Shown here one piece after another: positions 31,395-51,220 of a stretch of DNA of 64,000 nucleotides. Each line of letters begins with the position of its first letter. The stretch's first letter is position 1. The position numbers and the translations under genes were made by a program. Under the pieces are notes generated by a model. That model was not told the origin of the DNA. It made no database searches and saw only the letters and a list, made by a program, of their open reading frames with translations. The stretch comes from Psychroserpens sp. SPM9 (GTDB lineage Bacteria; Bacteroidota; Bacteroidia; Flavobacteriales; Flavobacteriaceae): positions 248,001 through 312,000 of the forward strand of contig NZ_JANZNR010000005.1 in NCBI RefSeq assembly GCF_025153525.1, read 5' to 3'.

Positions 31395-33875
31395 TTACAA
31401 GCGTTTTAGAAAACGTTTGACACGCTTCCACACAGACGATTGGTTATCACGCTCATGATAGGCATTACCATAAACACCATAACCATAGCCATAACCATAA
31501 CCGTAACCGTAACCATAACCATAGTTATGATTTGTTTTATGCTTGTAGAAGTTCAATACAAAACTTATGTTTTTCACTTCACCTGCACGATACTTAGCAT
31601 TAATTAAAGCCAACATGCCTTTTTTAGTATAATCTAATCGAACCATAAATATGGTAGCATCGGCATATTGTGTTAATTCAAGTGCATCGGTCACCAGACC
31701 TAAAGGCGGCGTATCTAAAACGATCATATCATAGTCTTTTCGCAGTTGACTAATCATAATACTCATTTGGTCGCTCATCAATAATTCAGAAGGATTAGGA
31801 GGTACTGGTCCAGAAGGAATGACATCTAAATTCTCAATATGAGTGGTATATTTTACTTCTTCAAAAGTACTTTCCCCTATAAGGTAATTTACAATCCCTT
31901 TGTCATTATCAATATTAAAATCTCCAAATATTTTAGGTTTACGCAAATCGAGACCCAGTAAGATTGTTTTCTTTCCTGACAAGGCATATACCGTCGCCAT
32001 ATTGATAGAACAAAATGTTTTTCCTTCACCACTTACCGAAGAGGTAATCATTAAGGTTTTTCCTTCGGATTTTCCTTGTTTTTTATATAAAAACTGTAAG
32101 CTTGATCGTATGGATCTAAAGGATTCGGCAACTGCAGACTTCGGTTTTTCGAAGACAATTAAATTGTTTTTGTAGTTATACTTTCCAATTAATCCTAAAA
32201 TAGGAATCTTAGACAGCTGCTCTATTTCATCAGAACCGTGAATGGTATTATCTAATAAGAACAATACAAAAATTAAAAACATCGGTATAAAAAAGCCTAA
32301 CATCAAAGCCATCATATAATTAAGTGACTTATTAGGACCAATGAGTCCGCCACCAATATCTTTAGCTTCATCAATTACCGTGATATCCGAAATATTGGCA
32401 GCCTTAACAATAGCTGCTTCACTACGCTTTTCGATATATACGTCATAAGCTTCCTGACTGATATCTAACTTTCTTTGAATTTTAAGATACTCTTGTTGAT
32501 CTTCAGGCAAGCCGCTTAATTTAGCTTCCAAATTGGCTATACTTCTGTTAATGGTCGATAATTGAATGCCAAGTGTTTTTTTAGTCGCATCAATAGTCTC
32601 TAAAAGTACGTTCTTTTCAGAATCTATTTTTCGATCTAAGTCTTTGAACAAATTGGAGCCTTCTTTAGTGGTATATTCTAAGTTTTGACGCTCGGCAGCC
32701 AGCGCTATGATTTTAGAGACACTGCTCAATATATTGGCTTCTTGAATCCCAACAGATGTTGGTGCGGCTATTTCGGTATAGTCTGTTTTTGTATTTAAAT
32801 ACTTTTCTAAATTATCAAGATAATCCAACTTTAGCTTTTCTTGCTCTTTGGTTAAATCGTAATCTCTCAACTGGTTTGAAATTTGAGTAATTTCTTCGGT
32901 AACATCAAAAACTTTATTCTCTTTTCGAAATTTATTCATTTCGTCTGTGACGTCTTTCAGACTATTATTTACAGCTGCCAAACTACTATCAATAAACTTT
33001 ATCGTATTGGTTGCATATAGATTTTTTCGTTCTAATTCCGTTTTACTTAAAATCTCAGAAGTCGCATTTAGATAATCGACTATTTTTGCTTTATTATTTC
33101 CTGCCAATTGCAATCGCAACACTGATGACGATGTAGAAAACGGCGCAATCATAATACGATCTTGATAGTTTTTTACTATGTTATCAAAACTTAAAAATCT
33201 TACAAAATATTCAGAGCCTGGTTTGACGCGTAACGAAGGTTTTATGACCAGTCGACCGTTAAGAAAAGGTAAATCAATTAACTCGCCATTTTTATATGTT
33301 TTTGTATAGACACCGGTTGGCACATCTACAGTTTCAAAGGTTTTATCTTCATAAATCTGAGCACGTCGTCTCGAACCTTCAAACTCTGTAAAAATCTCAA
33401 ATTCATTATTTTCTTTAAATCTGATACCTATTGGGGAGCTTAGAAGTTGCGGTTTGGTTTTATCGATTAAAAAATCAAATGGTGCTTTATTGTAAATATC
33501 TTGCTTTCTGTATTTACCTTCTTCTAAATATTCCTTATAAAATTGTAAAGAGTCGACTACTTTTTCATTGTGACTTCTGGTTTTGATTGCAGTAATAATT
33601 TTACTGACTTTACCAGACACACCTCCCCAGTTAAACGATATACTCGTATTGGCAGTAAAAAAGGGGTTTTGATCATTTTCTACGGAAATTAAAGTGTCAA
33701 GTTTATAAACATTTTGCTTTCTAACATTAATAAAATAAGCGACTAAAAGCGCTGTACCTATAGAAAGCATAATAAACTTCCATAGGTTTAAAACTTTAAA
33801 TAAATAACCTCTGAAGTCAAAACTTACACGACCCGATTCACTTTGATCAAATTCTTCTTGAGTGTTATGTTCCAT
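31395..33875 (-). CDS. polysaccharide co-polymerase / tyrosine autokinase (Wzc-like)
   Basis: The 826-residue protein combines a Wzz-type periplasmic domain between two membrane helices (about 30-52 and 525-547), with long coiled-coil stretches, and a cytoplasmic BY-kinase domain. The Walker A motif is SGEGKT (615-620), Walker A' is LGLDLRKP near 635 and the Walker B-like LDTPPLG lies before the C-terminus. The tail carries eight YG dipeptides (785-800) and more Tyr residues, the probable autophosphorylation cluster. Wzc controls chain length and partners with the outer-membrane Wza-like exporter, whose gene is 3 bases upstream. Confidence 0.93.
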   Translation of the reverse strand: MEHNTQEEFDQSESGRVSFDFRGYLFKVLNLWKFIMLSIGTALLVAYFINVRKQNVYKLDTLISVENDQNPFFTANTSISFNWGGVSGKVSKIITAIKTRSHNEKVVDSLQFYKEYLEEGKYRKQDIYNKAPFDFLIDKTKPQLLSSPIGIRFKENNEFEIFTEFEGSRRRAQIYEDKTFETVDVPTGVYTKTYKNGELIDLPFLNGRLVIKPSLRVKPGSEYFVRFLSFDNIVKNYQDRIMIAPFSTSSSVLRLQLAGNNKAKIVDYLNATSEILSKTELERKNLYATNTIKFIDSSLAAVNNSLKDVTDEMNKFRKENKVFDVTEEITQISNQLRDYDLTKEQEKLKLDYLDNLEKYLNTKTDYTEIAAPTSVGIQEANILSSVSKIIALAAERQNLEYTTKEGSNLFKDLDRKIDSEKNVLLETIDATKKTLGIQLSTINRSIANLEAKLSGLPEDQQEYLKIQRKLDISQEAYDVYIEKRSEAAIVKAANISDITVIDEAKDIGGGLIGPNKSLNYMMALMLGFFIPMFLIFVLFLLDNTIHGSDEIEQLSKIPILGLIGKYNYKNNLIVFEKPKSAVAESFRSIRSSLQFLYKKQGKSEGKTLMITSSVSGEGKTFCSINMATVYALSGKKTILLGLDLRKPKIFGDFNIDNDKGIVNYLIGESTFEEVKYTTHIENLDVIPSGPVPPNPSELLMSDQMSIMISQLRKDYDMIVLDTPPLGLVTDALELTQYADATIFMVRLDYTKKGMLALINAKYRAGEVKNISFVLNFYKHKTNHNYGYGYGYGYGYGYGYGVYGNAYHERDNQSSVWKRVKRFLKRL
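31476..31523 (-). repeat. hexanucleotide tandem repeat encoding eight Tyr-Gly units
   Basis: The minus strand here reads eight consecutive TATGGT-like codon pairs (TAT/TAC then GGT/GGC), coding YG eight times at residues 785-800 of the co-polymerase. Silent differences (TAT against TAC, GGT against GGC) show it is not a freshly slipped perfect repeat, although slippage could still change the number of Tyr residues without a frameshift. Confidence 0.9.
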
Positions 33876-42800: not shown

Positions 42801-43212
42801 GGTTCACGAGCAAAAAGATCCTTTATTAATTTACAAGTTCGAAGCCTTTGAGTTATTCAAACAAATGATTGATCAAGTGAATAAAGATGTGATTTCATTT
42901 TTATTTAAAGGAGAATTACCAACCGAAACTCAGAACAATATCCAAGAAGCGAAAGCGCGCAAGCAAGAAAAATTGCAAACTCAGAAAGACGAAATCCCAA
43001 ATATGGATGAACGTGCTGCGCAAAGTAGAGCTGCTGGAAATACACAACGTCAACCTGAAGTTGTTGAAACGATTGTACGCGACAAACCAAAAATTGGTCG
43101 TAACGATCGTGTGACAATTAAACATGTAATGAGTGGCGAAAACAAAACGGTAAAATACAAACAAGCCGAACCTTTAATTGCTAAAGGCGAATGGGTACTT
43201 ATCGAAGAATAG
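39859..43212 (+). CDS. secA: preprotein translocase ATPase SecA
   Basis: SecA drives the Sec translocon. The 1117-residue protein has Walker A MQTGEGKTLVA, the DEVDSVLVDDARTPLIISGP block, GTDIKL with the RGRAGRQGDPG motif of the second motor domain, and preprotein cross-linking and helical scaffold regions. It is about 200 residues longer than E. coli SecA. Part of this is an insertion of about 100 residues (RKELVGVLAEAKKL to about IEEKNN) after the first motor motifs, common in Bacteroidota. The C-terminus lacks the Cys-rich zinc motif that binds SecB in proteobacteria. A strong terminator follows. Confidence 0.98.
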   Translation: MSFLNSVLKVFVGDKAKQDVKALSPIVEKVKAFESALEQLSHDELRAKTAAFKAKIAEARKPLQDTIDQLLKDAEATDDIDKREDIYVEIDKIKDDIYQVTEDVLNDIMAEAFAVVKETAKRFVHNTEIPVQANEFDRLISGDKDYVSLEGDKAIWANSWDAAGKPITWDMIHYDVQLIGGAAMHQGKIAEMQTGEGKTLVATLPVYLNALAGKGVHLVTVNDYLAKRDSAWMAPIFEFHGLSVDCIDYHTPNSEARRKAYRADITYGTNNEFGFDYLRDNMAHSPDDLVQRPHHYAIVDEVDSVLVDDARTPLIISGPIPQGDRHEFTELKPKVEDLANIQRKELVGVLAEAKKLIAEGDTKEGGFLLLRAYRGIPKNKALIKFLSEEGIKQLLQKTENFYMQDNNREMPKVDAELYYVIEEKNNQVELTDKGVEYLSGKDNPDFFVMPEIGMEISKIEAKGLSKEEEAAEKEELFRDFGIKSERIHTLNQLLKAYALFEKDIQYVVMDNKVMIVDEQTGRIMDGRRYSDGLHQAIEAKENVKIEDATQTFATVTLQNYFRMYRKLSGMTGTAVTEAGEFWEIYKLDVVEIPTNRPIARDDREDLVYKTKREKYNAVIDEVTKLSQAGRPVLIGTTSVEISELLGKMLSIRKVPHNVLNAKLHKKEADIVAEAGQPGQVTIATNMAGRGTDIKLTEAVKEAGGLAIVGTERHDSRRVDRQLRGRAGRQGDPGSSQFYVSLEDNLMRLFGSERIAKMMDKMGLKEGEVIQHSMISKSIERAQKKVEENQFGVRKRLLEYDDVMNAQREVVYKRRRHALEGERLRVDLANMIYDTSEGIVETNKNAEDFKNFEFELIRYFSMSSPISEAEFAKGSVQDIAGKVYKAAFEHYREKMQRNAELAFPVIENVYLNQRDKYKRIVVPFTDGVKNLQVVTDLEKAYETKGTQLINDFEKNITLAIVDDAWKTHLRKMDELKQSVQLAVHEQKDPLLIYKFEAFELFKQMIDQVNKDVISFLFKGELPTETQNNIQEAKARKQEKLQTQKDEIPNMDERAAQSRAAGNTQRQPEVVETIVRDKPKIGRNDRVTIKHVMSGENKTVKYKQAEPLIAKGEWVLIEE

Positions 43213-43296
43213 ATGAATCCAATTGGTTTTTAATTATCCTGAACGTGTTTCAGAATTATATATAAAACAGTCATTCAAAACGAAATGACATATCTA

Positions 43297-43329
43297 AAAA
43301 AATCCCAAACATGACGTTTGGGATTTTTT
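43297..43329 (+). terminator. intrinsic terminator after secA
   Basis: A 14-base stem (AAAAAATCCCAAAC with GTTTGGGATTTTTT, loop ATGAC) ends in a T-run, 84 bases after the secA stop. Confidence 0.85.
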
Positions 43330-43436
43330 GTTTACAATAAATTAAATTGTTTCATTATTATAAGTTATATTTTACTATATTCATAACCAATACGTTATAT
43401 TCAAAAATCAATTTCACAAACCAAACAACCATCAAC

Positions 43437-43955
43437 ATGAAAAAATTAATTTTCTTTATTGCATTATTAATGTGTACCACAGTATTTGCTCAAGACCGAA
43501 TAATTAAACCCAAACCAACATTGACGATTGTTGATGTGAAAAATTTTGATTTCAATTCAAACTTTTTAAATGTTTATTATCAAATAGATGATTATGAAAT
43601 AATCCCATTGAAAATATTATTTTTTAAACAAAAGCACACCACCGAAGTGATTAATGAAGCAACATCTAAAACGGTACCTGTATCAACAATTATGATCAAA
43701 GGAGAGTATTCTAAAAATGGAACAAAAAGTGTTTACTTCAAATATAGTTATACAGATATGGATGCTTTCTTAGCGATAAAATCCTTATTCGAAAACTATG
43801 ATCAAGAAGGGAAGCTTATTTTAATCAAATCTCCAGCAAAAATTGGTGATCCTACTACAATTAATGTCCCAGGTAGCGAAAGTAAACAAAGCATATTCCC
43901 AATACAAAACGACCAAATTGAATATATTCATAAAGCTTCTACTAAAATGTTTTAA
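43437..43955 (+). CDS. secreted protein of unknown function
   Basis: From the ATG at 43437 the product is 172 residues with a clear signal peptide (KKLIFFIALLMCTTVFA, cleavage before Gln). A reading from 43347 adds 30 residues with no signal likeness and is not needed. The mature part is beta-rich, with alternating charged and hydrophobic residues, and has no motif I recognise. The next gene starts 10 bases later on the same strand, so the two are probably cotranscribed and may act together in the periplasm or outer membrane. Confidence 0.7.
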   Translation: MKKLIFFIALLMCTTVFAQDRIIKPKPTLTIVDVKNFDFNSNFLNVYYQIDDYEIIPLKILFFKQKHTTEVINEATSKTVPVSTIMIKGEYSKNGTKSVYFKYSYTDMDAFLAIKSLFENYDQEGKLILIKSPAKIGDPTTINVPGSESKQSIFPIQNDQIEYIHKASTKMF

Positions 43956-43965
43956 AAACATCCAT

Positions 43966-44784
43966 ATGAAAATCAATTTCCTTTTTTTAGCGTTCTTTAT
44001 TAGCTCAATATCAATGCAAATTCAAGCTCAAGAGCAACCAGTGATTACGACTACAATTCAAAAAATTGGCCAAACTGAAATAAAAGTTAGCGTTGTTCAA
44101 CCCAAAATAATGAGAGTTACTAATCGCAATAAAGCACTCAATTACAAAAACCTTTGGAAACAACATGTAAATGGAGCTGCTGAAATAGAATTTAACAACG
44201 ATGTTATTGTTGACAAGATTAAACTAAAAGCCGGGAAGTACTTAATTTTACTATTTCCTGGGAATGATTGGAAACCTAAAAATGATTCTATGAGAGCTTT
44301 TCCTGGGAATGATTGGAGTCCAAAAGATTCCAAAATTAAATTTCCAGGTAACGATTGGAAACCCAAAAATGATTCTGTCAAAGCTTTTCCAGGAAATGAT
44401 TGGAAACCAAGTACTGACACTCTTAATGTTTTCCCAGGGAATGACTGGAATATTAAAGATTCCAAAGTTAAATTCCCAGGTAATGATTGGAAGCCTAAAA
44501 ATTCAAAAATTGCCTTTCCAGGAAATGATTGGAGCCCTTTAAATGATGCTATGGATGAATTTCCTGGGAACGATTGGCTCGTTGTGTTTTACCAAAACAC
44601 AAATTCTAACAGTAAAACATTAGATAAAAATTTAATTGCTGCGGAAATAATGGTCAATCCCGAAAAAATTATTCAACCATTAATGAATTTATCGGCTAAC
44701 TTCATGTATTCAAATCCAAAAAGCATCCAATTAACACTTGCTTGGGACAAAACTCTGATTTCAATACCAATACATCTAAAATAA
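43966..44784 (+). CDS. DUF2911-like secreted protein interrupted by an FPGNDW tandem repeat
   Basis: From the ATG at 43966 the product is 272 residues with a signal peptide ending SMQIQA. A reading from 43843 overlaps the preceding gene and adds 41 irrelevant residues. The flanks match a DUF2911 fold: AAEIEFNNDVIV and LKAGKYLIL before, LTLAWDKTLISIPI at the end, comparable with the paralogue at 50648 (LPKGKYTLW, LTMAWDNTKIAVPL). Between them, residues 97-204 hold eight FPGNDW units spaced 14-15 residues apart. A normal domain would run straight from KAGKY..PGNDW to LVVFYQN. The function is unknown; the insertion probably projects from a beta hairpin. Confidence 0.75.
   Translation: MKINFLFLAFFISSISMQIQAQEQPVITTTIQKIGQTEIKVSVVQPKIMRVTNRNKALNYKNLWKQHVNGAAEIEFNNDVIVDKIKLKAGKYLILLFPGNDWKPKNDSMRAFPGNDWSPKDSKIKFPGNDWKPKNDSVKAFPGNDWKPSTDTLNVFPGNDWNIKDSKVKFPGNDWKPKNSKIAFPGNDWSPLNDAMDEFPGNDWLVVFYQNTNSNSKTLDKNLIAAEIMVNPEKIIQPLMNLSANFMYSNPKSIQLTLAWDKTLISIPIHLK
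44254..44577 (+). repeat. in-frame tandem repeat of 42/45 bases encoding FPGNDW units
   Basis: The 324 bases encode eight FPGNDW hexapeptides separated by seven linkers of 8-9 residues that are rich in Lys, Asp, Ser and Pro. All eight hexapeptides are identical in protein, but the codons for Phe, Pro, Gly, Asn and Asp vary (for example GGG, GGT, GGA), while Trp has one codon. This points to selection on the peptide rather than recent DNA duplication alone. Confidence 0.93.
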
Positions 44785-44838
44785 TTATTGATTAAATTTA
44801 AATGCGTAAAACCAACAATCAATACTTAAAAATCAATC

Positions 44839-45243
44839 ATGAAAAAAGTAATAGCAACCATAGTAGGCTTTATTGTAGCATCATTAACTGTTTACATTTT
44901 TGAATCTCTTATTGGCCACAACCTGTTTCCATTGCCTGAAGGTGCCAATCCAATGGATATGGAATGGATTAAAAATAATATGGATCAAATCCCAACGGGA
45001 GCTAAAATATTTGTTGTTATTGCTCATTTTGTAGGTATAGTTGCCGGAATGGTAGTGGCAAGCTTGATTTCTAAAACCAGTATGGTTCCAGCTTATATTG
45101 TTGGTGGATTGATGTTAGCCGCAACTATTTTTAATGTGGCGATGTTACCAAAAGAATTGTGGTTTAGCATTAGCGATATTGTATTAGCTGTTGCTGGTTT
45201 ATTACTCGGAAAGTCTTTGGCGAAGCGACAGTTAAAAATATAG
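44839..45243 (+). CDS. small four-helix integral membrane protein (hypothetical)
   Basis: The 134-residue protein has four hydrophobic stretches: about 4-22, 55-80, 85-103 and 109-125. The loop after the first one is acidic and Pro-rich (LPEGANPMDMEW). It resembles small uncharacterised membrane proteins of Flavobacteria. The gene stands 54 bases after the DUF2911-like gene and could be in the same transcript. No function can be assigned. Confidence 0.68.
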   Translation: MKKVIATIVGFIVASLTVYIFESLIGHNLFPLPEGANPMDMEWIKNNMDQIPTGAKIFVVIAHFVGIVAGMVVASLISKTSMVPAYIVGGLMLAATIFNVAMLPKELWFSISDIVLAVAGLLLGKSLAKRQLKI

Positions 45244-47667: not shown

Positions 47668-49224
47668 TTAGTTTAAAACGATAGCGCTAAACTTCGCATT
47701 AATGATAATGGTTTTAGCAGAATTTTTAGAATTTGGAAAATTAGTAATGGTTTTTTGAGTCGTTAATTGATCGTTTAAACGGGAACGGTTCCCTTTAAAA
47801 TACACGCTATAATCGGTGGTTTTACTAGGCAATTTAATAAGGGCTTCACTGTTTTCGAGAATGATATTCAAATTTGTAAAGCTATCGGCAATATTAGAAA
47901 TAGACAAATCTCCAAAACTACCATCAATTATGGCATTTTCGATTAAATCATTGATACGAATATCTGATGAATTACTGTTTAAACGTAGCGTTCTCACGGT
48001 ATTTAAATGTGCATCCTCTACATACTTTAAGTTAAGTTCTCCCGCACTCCACGTTGTAACATGCACTGGAGAAAAAGACACATTGATGGAAGTCTCGCTC
48101 CCATCAATGTGATTTGCTAAAAATGTAGCATGTGATATATCTGCTTTTAGATTATGAATAACAGATGCCATTTTTAATTGACCATGTCTCACATTGAGAT
48201 TTAGTTTAGCATCTTTAGGCATTTTAATTTTAATGACCTTTTTTACATTAAGATGACGCTCTTCAATGCGTTTTGCAATCTCTTCACGACGCTGCTCTTG
48301 GACTTCGTGACGTTCTTCCAAACGCTTTGCTAACTTTTCCTGACGTTTTTCCATTTCTTTAGTACGCTTTTCCATTTGCTTTTCCCGTTCGGCTAAACGC
48401 TCTTCCATAACTTTAGCACGCTCTTCCATTTGCTTGCCGTATTTTTCACCCCAAACTTCCATCTTTTTAGCCCAATCTTTGTCGAATTGCTTTCCAAATT
48501 CTTCGCCCCAAGCTTCCATTTTCTTACCGTATTCTTCACCAAACCTATCACCCCAAGCTTCCATTTTTCTCTCATACGCTGAAAAATCCATTTCGCCCAT
48601 TTTACGAGCCCATTCTTTCATTTTTTGTTTGTACTCGGCACCATACTTTTCTTCATATTCTTTACTCCATTTTTCAAGATAAGCTTCACCACCTTTTTTA
48701 TAGGCTTCGGTATCAAAGCTAACGTTGTTAACACCTTCAGGTAATTCTGGCAATTCAGGTAATTCTGGCATTTCTGGCATTTCAAAACGTGCAATCTCAG
48801 GTAACTCTGGCATTTCCGGCATTTCTGGTAATTCAGGAATATCACCCAAATCTAAACCTTCGATAATCATTAAAGGTTCAAAATTTTTATCAAATCCTGT
48901 TAGTTGATCCCAAGTTCCATGACCTCCGCCTTCCGAAGTTATACTTACACGGCTTCCTGAACCTTCTACTTTAAGTTTCCAGTTTTTTAAGGCTTTTTCC
49001 AGATCTTCTTTAGATAATTTCTCACCATCGATATAGGCCTCAATTTCTAAGGTACTTTTGTTCCATGTATCAATTTCAATTTCTACGAAACTTGTATTTA
49101 AATCGATTGTCACATCTTTAGTCACATCGATTTTCTTTGACATTTTAGTCAACTGTTGTTGGGCTGAAACACTTATAGTGAAACAGAACAACACGAGTAA
49201 TATTAGATTATATTTTGTTTTCAT
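47668..49224 (-). CDS. secreted repeat-rich protein with a coiled-coil and an adhesin-like C-terminus
   Basis: The 518-residue protein has a signal peptide (residues 1-21) and several unusual regions. Residues 129-163 are a run of PELPE/PEMPE units. Residues 204-265 contain repeated KMEAWGEEFGK-like units. Residues 266-324 are a strongly charged coiled-coil (MEKRTKEMEKRQEKLAKR type). Residues about 350-518 are beta-rich and resemble the DUF4097/adhesin-like domain. It is encoded after a sigma and an anti-sigma-like gene and may be the main target or output of that regulon. No enzyme function is visible. Confidence 0.72.
   Translation of the reverse strand: MKTKYNLILLVLFCFTISVSAQQQLTKMSKKIDVTKDVTIDLNTSFVEIEIDTWNKSTLEIEAYIDGEKLSKEDLEKALKNWKLKVEGSGSRVSITSEGGGHGTWDQLTGFDKNFEPLMIIEGLDLGDIPELPEMPEMPELPEIARFEMPEMPELPELPELPEGVNNVSFDTEAYKKGGEAYLEKWSKEYEEKYGAEYKQKMKEWARKMGEMDFSAYERKMEAWGDRFGEEYGKKMEAWGEEFGKQFDKDWAKKMEVWGEKYGKQMEERAKVMEERLAEREKQMEKRTKEMEKRQEKLAKRLEERHEVQEQRREEIAKRIEERHLNVKKVIKIKMPKDAKLNLNVRHGQLKMASVIHNLKADISHATFLANHIDGSETSINVSFSPVHVTTWSAGELNLKYVEDAHLNTVRTLRLNSNSSDIRINDLIENAIIDGSFGDLSISNIADSFTNLNIILENSEALIKLPSKTTDYSVYFKGNRSRLNDQLTTQKTITNFPNSKNSAKTIIINAKFSAIVLN
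48736..48840 (-). repeat. pentad/triplet repeat encoding PELPE/PEMPE units
   Basis: Within the secreted protein, 35 residues consist almost entirely of PELPE and PEMPE, split by one EIARFEM interruption. The low-complexity stretch encodes an extended acidic, Pro-rich spacer. Confidence 0.85.
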
Positions 49225-50647: not shown

Positions 50648-51220
50648 ATGAACACGTTTTTAAAACGCCTACTTGTTATATTATCTATTGTTGCGCTCGG
50701 ACTCTTTCTATATTCCTATTTTGTTGAAAATATTTTTTCACCTAGGCTGAGTCCTAAAGATACAGTAGAATTTAAATTAAATGATCTTAAACTAGAAGTC
50801 TTCTATAATAGACCCTCTAAAAAAGGACGTGAGATTTTTGGTGCTTTAGTGCCTTATGATAAGGTATGGAGAACTGGTGCCAATGAAGCAACAACTTTTG
50901 AATCTAACAAAGATTTACTCATAAAAGGAATTGTTTTACCGAAAGGAAAGTATACACTTTGGACTGTCCCAAAAGACTCGGCGTGGAATGTGATGTTTAA
51001 TAGCAAGCAATACGCTTGGGGTGTCGATGAAGAAATGCAAGTGATGTGGGATCCTAATCACGACGTGATGGAAATAACTGTTCCTATTGAAAAACTAGAC
51101 ACAACGGTCGAACAATTTACCATTGCATTTGACAATTCTACCGATGACCTTAAACTGACTATGGCTTGGGATAATACAAAAATTGCAGTACCTTTAAAAG
51201 TCATAAAAGACCAAAACTAA
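50648..51220 (+). CDS. DUF2911 protein with an N-terminal membrane anchor
   Basis: The 190-residue protein has an N-terminal hydrophobic helix (about 6-27). It is followed by a complete DUF2911 domain: VWRTGANEATTFES near 78-91, LPKGKYTLWTVP, WNVMFN and the end LTMAWDNTKIAVPL. These match the flanks of the repeat-bearing paralogue at 43966, where the segment between KGKY and the VMFN-like strand has been expanded. The biochemical role of DUF2911 is not known. It lies divergently from the ECF sigma operon, which may mean shared regulation. Confidence 0.87.
   Translation: MNTFLKRLLVILSIVALGLFLYSYFVENIFSPRLSPKDTVEFKLNDLKLEVFYNRPSKKGREIFGALVPYDKVWRTGANEATTFESNKDLLIKGIVLPKGKYTLWTVPKDSAWNVMFNSKQYAWGVDEEMQVMWDPNHDVMEITVPIEKLDTTVEQFTIAFDNSTDDLKLTMAWDNTKIAVPLKVIKDQN

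Follow-up and report, generated by a model that had tools for sequence, protein, structure and literature searches.

The FPGNDW array, its relatives and its slot

The window, i.e., the whole stretch of 64,000 nucleotides of Psychroserpens sp. SPM9 that was analyzed, contains a gene whose product carries the hexapeptide FPGNDW eight times inside a DUF2911 domain. It forms a small cassette with the gene upstream. The features referred to throughout are the following.

43437..43955 (+): upstream gene of the cassette, 172 aa, with a secreted-protein-like start
43966..44784 (+): array protein gene, 272 aa
44050..44268 (+): first DUF2911 stretch, residues 29-101, profile positions 5-77
44254..44271 (+): FPGNDW unit 1, exact match
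44299..44316 (+): FPGNDW unit 2, exact match
44341..44358 (+): FPGNDW unit 3, exact match
44386..44403 (+): FPGNDW unit 4, exact match
44431..44448 (+): FPGNDW unit 5, exact match
44473..44490 (+): FPGNDW unit 6, exact match
44515..44532 (+): FPGNDW unit 7, exact match
44560..44577 (+): FPGNDW unit 8, exact match, continuing into the strand LVVFYQN
44569..44772 (+): second DUF2911 stretch, profile positions 77-145; alone it scores 24.2 bits, under the cut-off of 27
44839..45243 (+): downstream 134-aa gene, membrane-like by reading; a conserved neighbour on the far side of the slot, outside the cassette
50648..51220 (+): canonical DUF2911 paralogue with a single turn (E 9.9e-50), used as comparison

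The eight identical units reported in the initial annotation are indeed present between residues 97 and 204, starting at residues 97, 112, 126, 141, 156, 170, 184 and 199, always at a spacing of 14 or 15. The degenerate DNA pattern for FPGNDW matched eight times in the window versus none in 100 shuffles, and throughout the genome (3.8 Mb) it gave eight forward matches, all in the array gene (control 0). Six different DNA spellings are used among these units. The N-terminus of the protein resembles a signal peptide, which suggests that it is exported. FPGNDW is also the top repeated hexapeptide among the frames of at least 60 aa in the window, followed by YGYGYG (six times) and GYGYGY (five times). 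Two other repetitive proteins were noted by eye. One (31395-33875, -) is a Wzc-like tyrosine kinase with its end close to a (GY)n tail, where the six YGYGYG are found, and the other (47668-49224, -) is a secreted protein in which repeats of the EMPELPELPE type precede a long, charged stretch resembling a coiled coil, with a sigma-factor-like gene near.

A scan for two FPG[ND]xW units over about 85,000 species genomes gave eight stretches, two of which were true relatives, those of Algibacter pacificus (239 aa, six units) and Lacinutrix sp. C3R15 (241 aa, six units). Because the pattern demands TTT at the start and two units that are nearly perfect, it may miss arrays and is biased towards those that are intact. 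The family was also searched with a profile, which imposes no requirement for perfect units, and this added the protein of genome G189 (257 aa, seven units). The genes at loci L031 and L030 are those of L022 and L025, and thus the family genomes G174 and G365 are those of the two relatives from the scan. DUF2911, of unknown function according to Pfam, is common in the family, the array-protein profile matching 216 of 397 genomes at E <= 1e-6. Among the matches listed, only four of the 397 genomes carry the array, and after them the E value drops from 3.2e-61 to 2.7e-11; the lower-scoring sequences inspected were those of 26 loci. The full-length array protein appeared in one of the 23 genomes of its own genus, and the other two genera contribute two carriers out of seven genomes and one out of five. 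An order-wide search matched a single genome out of 395, our own, so that the other three carriers evidently lie outside that sample. In none of these searches did a protein with the same flanks and just one unit turn up, and the intermediate is therefore missing. Viral and phage collections contained no relative either: one scan returned no stretches, another search found none, and peptide-pattern scans matched 22 and 71 stretches, none of which was confirmed as a relative.

The remaining stretches of the species-genome scan were rejected, as in none of them does a DUF2911-like hairpin carry an FPGNDW array. Four (L021, L023, L026 and L027) had one match per separate frame, one (L024) had a frame with two copies of FPGNSW and the last (L028) had FPGDTW three times. 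A Microcystis plasmid match was also discarded, as one frame of the matched stretch encodes a PGxDGxPGKDG repeat of collagen type and FPGNDW is absent.

The upstream protein matches no Pfam family above the cut-off (DUF6974 gave 17.6 bits versus a cut-off of 26). Its profile matched three of the 397 family genomes at E <= 1e-5, all of them array carriers, with the gene located directly upstream of the array each time; in its own genus there was one clear match among 23 genomes plus a weak one (G014, E 7.8e-4, residues 1-59). The Algibacter genome gave no match to it in the family search, and there an rsmB-like gene adjoins the array upstream. Since the Algibacter array is intact, the upstream product is not an obligatory partner.

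In the window and in loci L025 and L033 the pair is flanked by secA and the 134-aa gene, the latter matched at E <= 1e-5 in 19 of the 23 genus genomes, our own included. FPGNDW was absent from all 11 stretches fetched from genus mates with a strong match to the 134-aa gene. The secA end was visible in four of them, two of which (L077 and L080) had no separate frame of at least 60 aa between secA and the 134-aa gene, while in the remaining two (L073 and L074) different small frames, 170 and 132 aa long, occupied the interval. The contents of the slot differ among genus mates, hence the slot is variable and the cassette accessory. As a side observation, the interval between secA and the 134-aa gene (43212-44839 in the window, and its equivalents in these four loci) may be a small insertion hotspot. 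Comparison with L025 gave 90% identity for the parts of SecA compared, 39% for the 134-aa protein, 42% for the upstream protein and 55 and 65% for the two flanks of the array protein, a contrast that does not by itself demonstrate recent transfer. Just past secA (43300-43330) a clear stem followed by a T run could be read by eye, although a scan did not list it; with such a stem, the cassette probably has a transcript of its own.

A DUF2911 domain interrupted at one hairpin

The assignment of the flanks to DUF2911 in the initial annotation was borne out, as PF11138 aligned with both halves of the protein (60.8 bits, cut-off 27, E 1.7e-16). All four array orthologues match the family (best E 8.3e-17), so the relatives also carry the array within DUF2911 and not in an unrelated fold. 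The same search identified five DUF2911 genes in the genome. The two matching stretches abut at profile position 77, which places the array at one point of a domain that is otherwise nearly complete.

As a reference for the ordinary members we aligned 28 DUF2911 sequences, retained because they have WRxGAN (30 loci were considered, of which L046 and L047 had no match to it and were dropped). These canonical proteins have one short turn at the position of the array, the usual hairpin being AGxYxIFTKPGxxxW followed by V-x-F-Y, with the Pro in 25 and the Trp in 27 of the 28. In the window protein the same region is AGKYLILL-FPGNDW-(linker-FPGNDW)7-LVVFYQN, with a similar arrangement in the three remaining array proteins, so that the pattern AGxY....P, turn, W..FY is preserved on either side of the array. 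LVVFYQN aligns with the strand that comes after the turn in the single-turn members, in agreement with the earlier observation that the last unit leads directly into it. The proposal that the expansion is a duplicated beta-hairpin has to be abandoned, given that the strands AGKYLILL and LVVFYQN are each present in a single copy and the reiterated part is only the turn, together with a new linker of 8-9 residues.

AlphaFold2 models agree with the alignment in placing the array at this hairpin, as had been suggested. A first job, with three alignment rows, had a mean pLDDT of 37 and was not used for the core. The second was run on the Algibacter protein with paralogue halves added (five alignment rows), and its best model reached a mean pLDDT of 59 (46-50 in the other four). 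The core blocks of this model are mostly at pLDDT 69-92, residues 49-60 being under 50, and the array (about 31) is a coil located between the strands at 90-98 and 173-180, so that it is predicted to emerge from the hairpin. A Foldseek search of the second model against the PDB and viral models gave nothing at E 0.001 or better, and a PDB sequence search with the array protein found no match at E <= 1; DUF2911 itself is without a solved relative by sequence at that E value. Two other similarities were below threshold and were set aside, one to the GLAA-B beta-barrel (20.1 bits versus a cut-off of 28; three of the four orthologues at E <= 1) and the other to neuropilin (E 0.18).

The array proteins have also lost residues that characterize the ordinary members. 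At three columns where all 28 canonical sequences have Arg, the four array proteins show Q/H/L/Q, V/R/L/W and K/K/K/K, leaving Arg in one instance in one protein; the third of these columns is invariant partly by construction, due to the WRxGAN selection, and the first two lie in a region of uncertain alignment. Among the residues invariant in the canonical set, Trp and Asn are kept in all four array proteins and Pro in three, and Gly-Ala has been lost, with the reservation that the WRxGAN columns are invariant by construction and that the sequences are not securely aligned between the Arg-Pro and the Trp columns. The loss of residues invariant in the ordinary DUF2911 proteins compared identifies the array proteins as a divergent offshoot of the family, in which the function of the ordinary site is probably no longer performed.

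Selection on the units and pattern of the linkers

All 27 units of the four proteins (8, 6, 6 and 7) read FPGNDW. They were found by exact match, and the zero residue differences follow partly from the method, but the unit spacing is always 14 or 15 in the four proteins, so no degenerate unit can be hidden between them. The 351 pairs of units (79 within a gene and 272 between genes) differ at 63% of the fourfold-degenerate sites within a gene and at 69% between genes, and at 43 and 48% of the twofold sites, respectively. Synonymous divergence is thus about the same within and between genes, i.e., the units are old and have not been recently homogenised. Meanwhile, the flanks of the orthologues are 45-65% identical with a dN of 0.24-0.46 (for several pairs the dS was high or could not be computed). 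Selection on the peptide, which had been deduced from the silent codon variation in the single gene, is strongly supported by these codon comparisons.

The same data bear on the idea that the array is simply a DNA-level expansion, neutral or recent, without function. The number of units does vary between genomes, and linkers 1 and 3 of our protein are mutual best matches, perhaps a younger duplicate. However, synonymous sites as diverged within as between genes, without a single residue difference, are not what such duplication would leave, and the order of the units is shared with the G189 protein (only 5 of 2000 shuffles reach the observed value). The signal of order is weak in the other comparisons, both for our protein (224 of 2000 shuffles with Algibacter, 296 with Lacinutrix) and for that of G189 (111 of 2000 with Lacinutrix, 171 with Algibacter). 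A neutral origin is already contradicted by these observations and we consider it hardly credible.

Open frames also run antisense to the arrays, one of 107 aa in the window (44142-44465, -), one of 146 aa across from the G189 array and one of 56 aa across from that of Algibacter; they probably just result from the codon pattern.

The 23 linkers (8 residues in 11 of them, 9 in the other 12) are less constrained than FPGNDW yet clearly patterned, with a Pro at position 2 in 22 and a hydrophobic residue (I, L, V or M) close to the end also in 22. The complete unit can be written as FPGNDW-x-P-x-N-(D)-S-x-hydrophobic-x, of 14-15 residues. Three of the four proteins contain, in all, six D-[ST]-[AILVMT] sequons, every one in the linkers and none elsewhere in those proteins; shuffling within linkers never reached six in 5000 trials (mean 0.57). 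PMC12871550 describes this D-S/T-hydrophobic motif and its glycosylation in non-cytoplasmic Bacteroidota proteins. O-glycans at these sites, with FPGNDW left bare, would turn the array into a glycosylated stalk of stickers and linkers that could act as a rigid spacer or a shield. However, the Algibacter protein has no sequons, so that glycosylation cannot be essential, and the linkers are related copies, hence the six sequons are not independent. The sequons offer a lead, but a glycosylated stalk appears improbable.

A different reading is that FPGNDW-containing peptides are excised from the loop. Multi-copy peptide precursors consist of identical short units between variable linkers, and the identical units and Lys-rich variable linkers of the array resemble them. 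On the other hand, no uniform cut site is apparent, as the residue preceding the Phe after a linker varies (K, A, V, S, L, N, R, E) while 22 of the 23 linkers give W-x-P after the motif. Besides, both strands of the hairpin are intact around the array and no maturation enzyme was recognised among the immediate neighbours profiled. Excision of peptides is, we believe, very improbable.

Possible roles of the array and known repeat systems

The hydropathy of the array (0.35-0.38) falls on the disordered side of the charge-hydropathy boundary (0.41-0.43) in all four proteins, and that of the core (0.46-0.49, boundary 0.43-0.45) on the folded side, again in all four; composition thus favours disorder for the array. 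The low pLDDT of the array in the models may reflect true disorder or result from having only 3-5 alignment rows.

The main rival to the reading that we favour is that each unit of 14-15 residues is a rung of a beta-roll or of a stack of hairpins, forming a stalk that protrudes from the DUF2911 core and in which FPGNDW is structural. The linkers are constrained as well as the motif, the unit length is only 14 or 15, the Phe, the Trp and one further hydrophobic residue per unit could make a core, and a tight turn would account for Gly, Pro, Asn and Asp being strictly conserved. Against such a ladder, AlphaFold2 gave coil with a pLDDT about 30 in both proteins tried (albeit from shallow alignments), the mean hydropathy is low, and no fold or sequence match of note appeared. 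A folded ladder is possible but on balance rather doubtful, although the patterned linkers keep it close to the scaffold that we propose below.

Our preferred reading, to which we would nevertheless give somewhat less than an even chance, is that a divergent DUF2911 domain serves as a scaffold that shows identical turn epitopes for multivalent binding. A secreted or periplasmic beta-rich domain, its own conserved site lost, would have been reused to support one hairpin whose turn, FPGNDW, was reiterated six to eight times with hydrophilic linkers of 8-9 residues, giving a loop of 78-108 residues. Each unit would display the same Phe-turn-Trp face, and the copies would jointly bind a partner, either a surface polymer or a protein. 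The architecture, the invariance of the units, the loss of family-conserved residues and the rarity are directly supported by the data, and the multivalent binding is what we infer from them. In favour of a scaffold are the identity of 27 of 27 units with randomised synonymous sites next to flanks just 45-65% identical, the replacement of the single canonical turn by the array, the abutting Pfam stretches, the altered Arg columns, the disordered-side array on a folded-side core, and the coil modelled between the two strands in the Algibacter protein. Against it, the patterned linkers fit a folded repeat at least as well, no binding partner was found, and the upstream gene has no match in Algibacter.

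The route itself, by which the hairpin turn of a globular domain is reiterated into an old, invariant array of binding epitopes on the same hairpin while the parent site is lost, we put forward only tentatively, as having appreciably less than an even chance. A passage of this kind from fold to multivalent ligand is not described for DUF2911 in the literature searched, where the family appears in one paper, as a row in a table. No mention of FPGNDW or PF11138 was found in that literature, most subscription journals being outside the search, and searches for work on arrays of repeats or motifs turned up nothing specific. The initial statement that no such family has been described agrees with this, absence being no proof. 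The array provides a short and testable candidate ligand sequence, the hexapeptide having remained constant in 27 copies while the flanks diverged by about half. The offshoot is also a clear-cut example of how a loop became a repeat region. In any event, this is a repeat array within a known domain family, real, rare and strongly selected, and its origin from a hairpin turn is unusual.

Compared with canonical DUF2911, the array proteins share the core and the hairpin (AGxYxxxxP, turn, WxxFY) but have six to eight turns instead of one, and the YSRP, GR and WRxGAN kept in the canonical members have lost their arginines. Multivalent arrays of short linear motifs, such as NPF or FG repeats, likewise repeat an invariant short motif with aromatics in a hydrophilic region, and here the motif is invariant in 27 of 27 units and the linkers are variable but patterned. 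Unlike the motifs of those arrays, FPGNDW corresponds to a beta-turn of the host domain, continuous with its strands, and the patterning of the linkers is itself a difference. MORN, choline-binding and RTX repeats build beta-solenoids and ladders from short units that, like ours, combine an aromatic with turn residues, but their profiles were not listed for the array protein in Pfam (limit E 10, with the HMMER filters dropping most matches above about 0.1). Finally, the rejected Salinibacteraceae stretch (L028:1038-1694) encodes a secreted-like protein, by reading, of 218 aa with a near-identical hexapeptide, FPGDTW, repeated three times. Its repeats are in direct tandem, without the linkers of the array protein, and it has no Pfam match at E <= 1; the two are possibly convergent.
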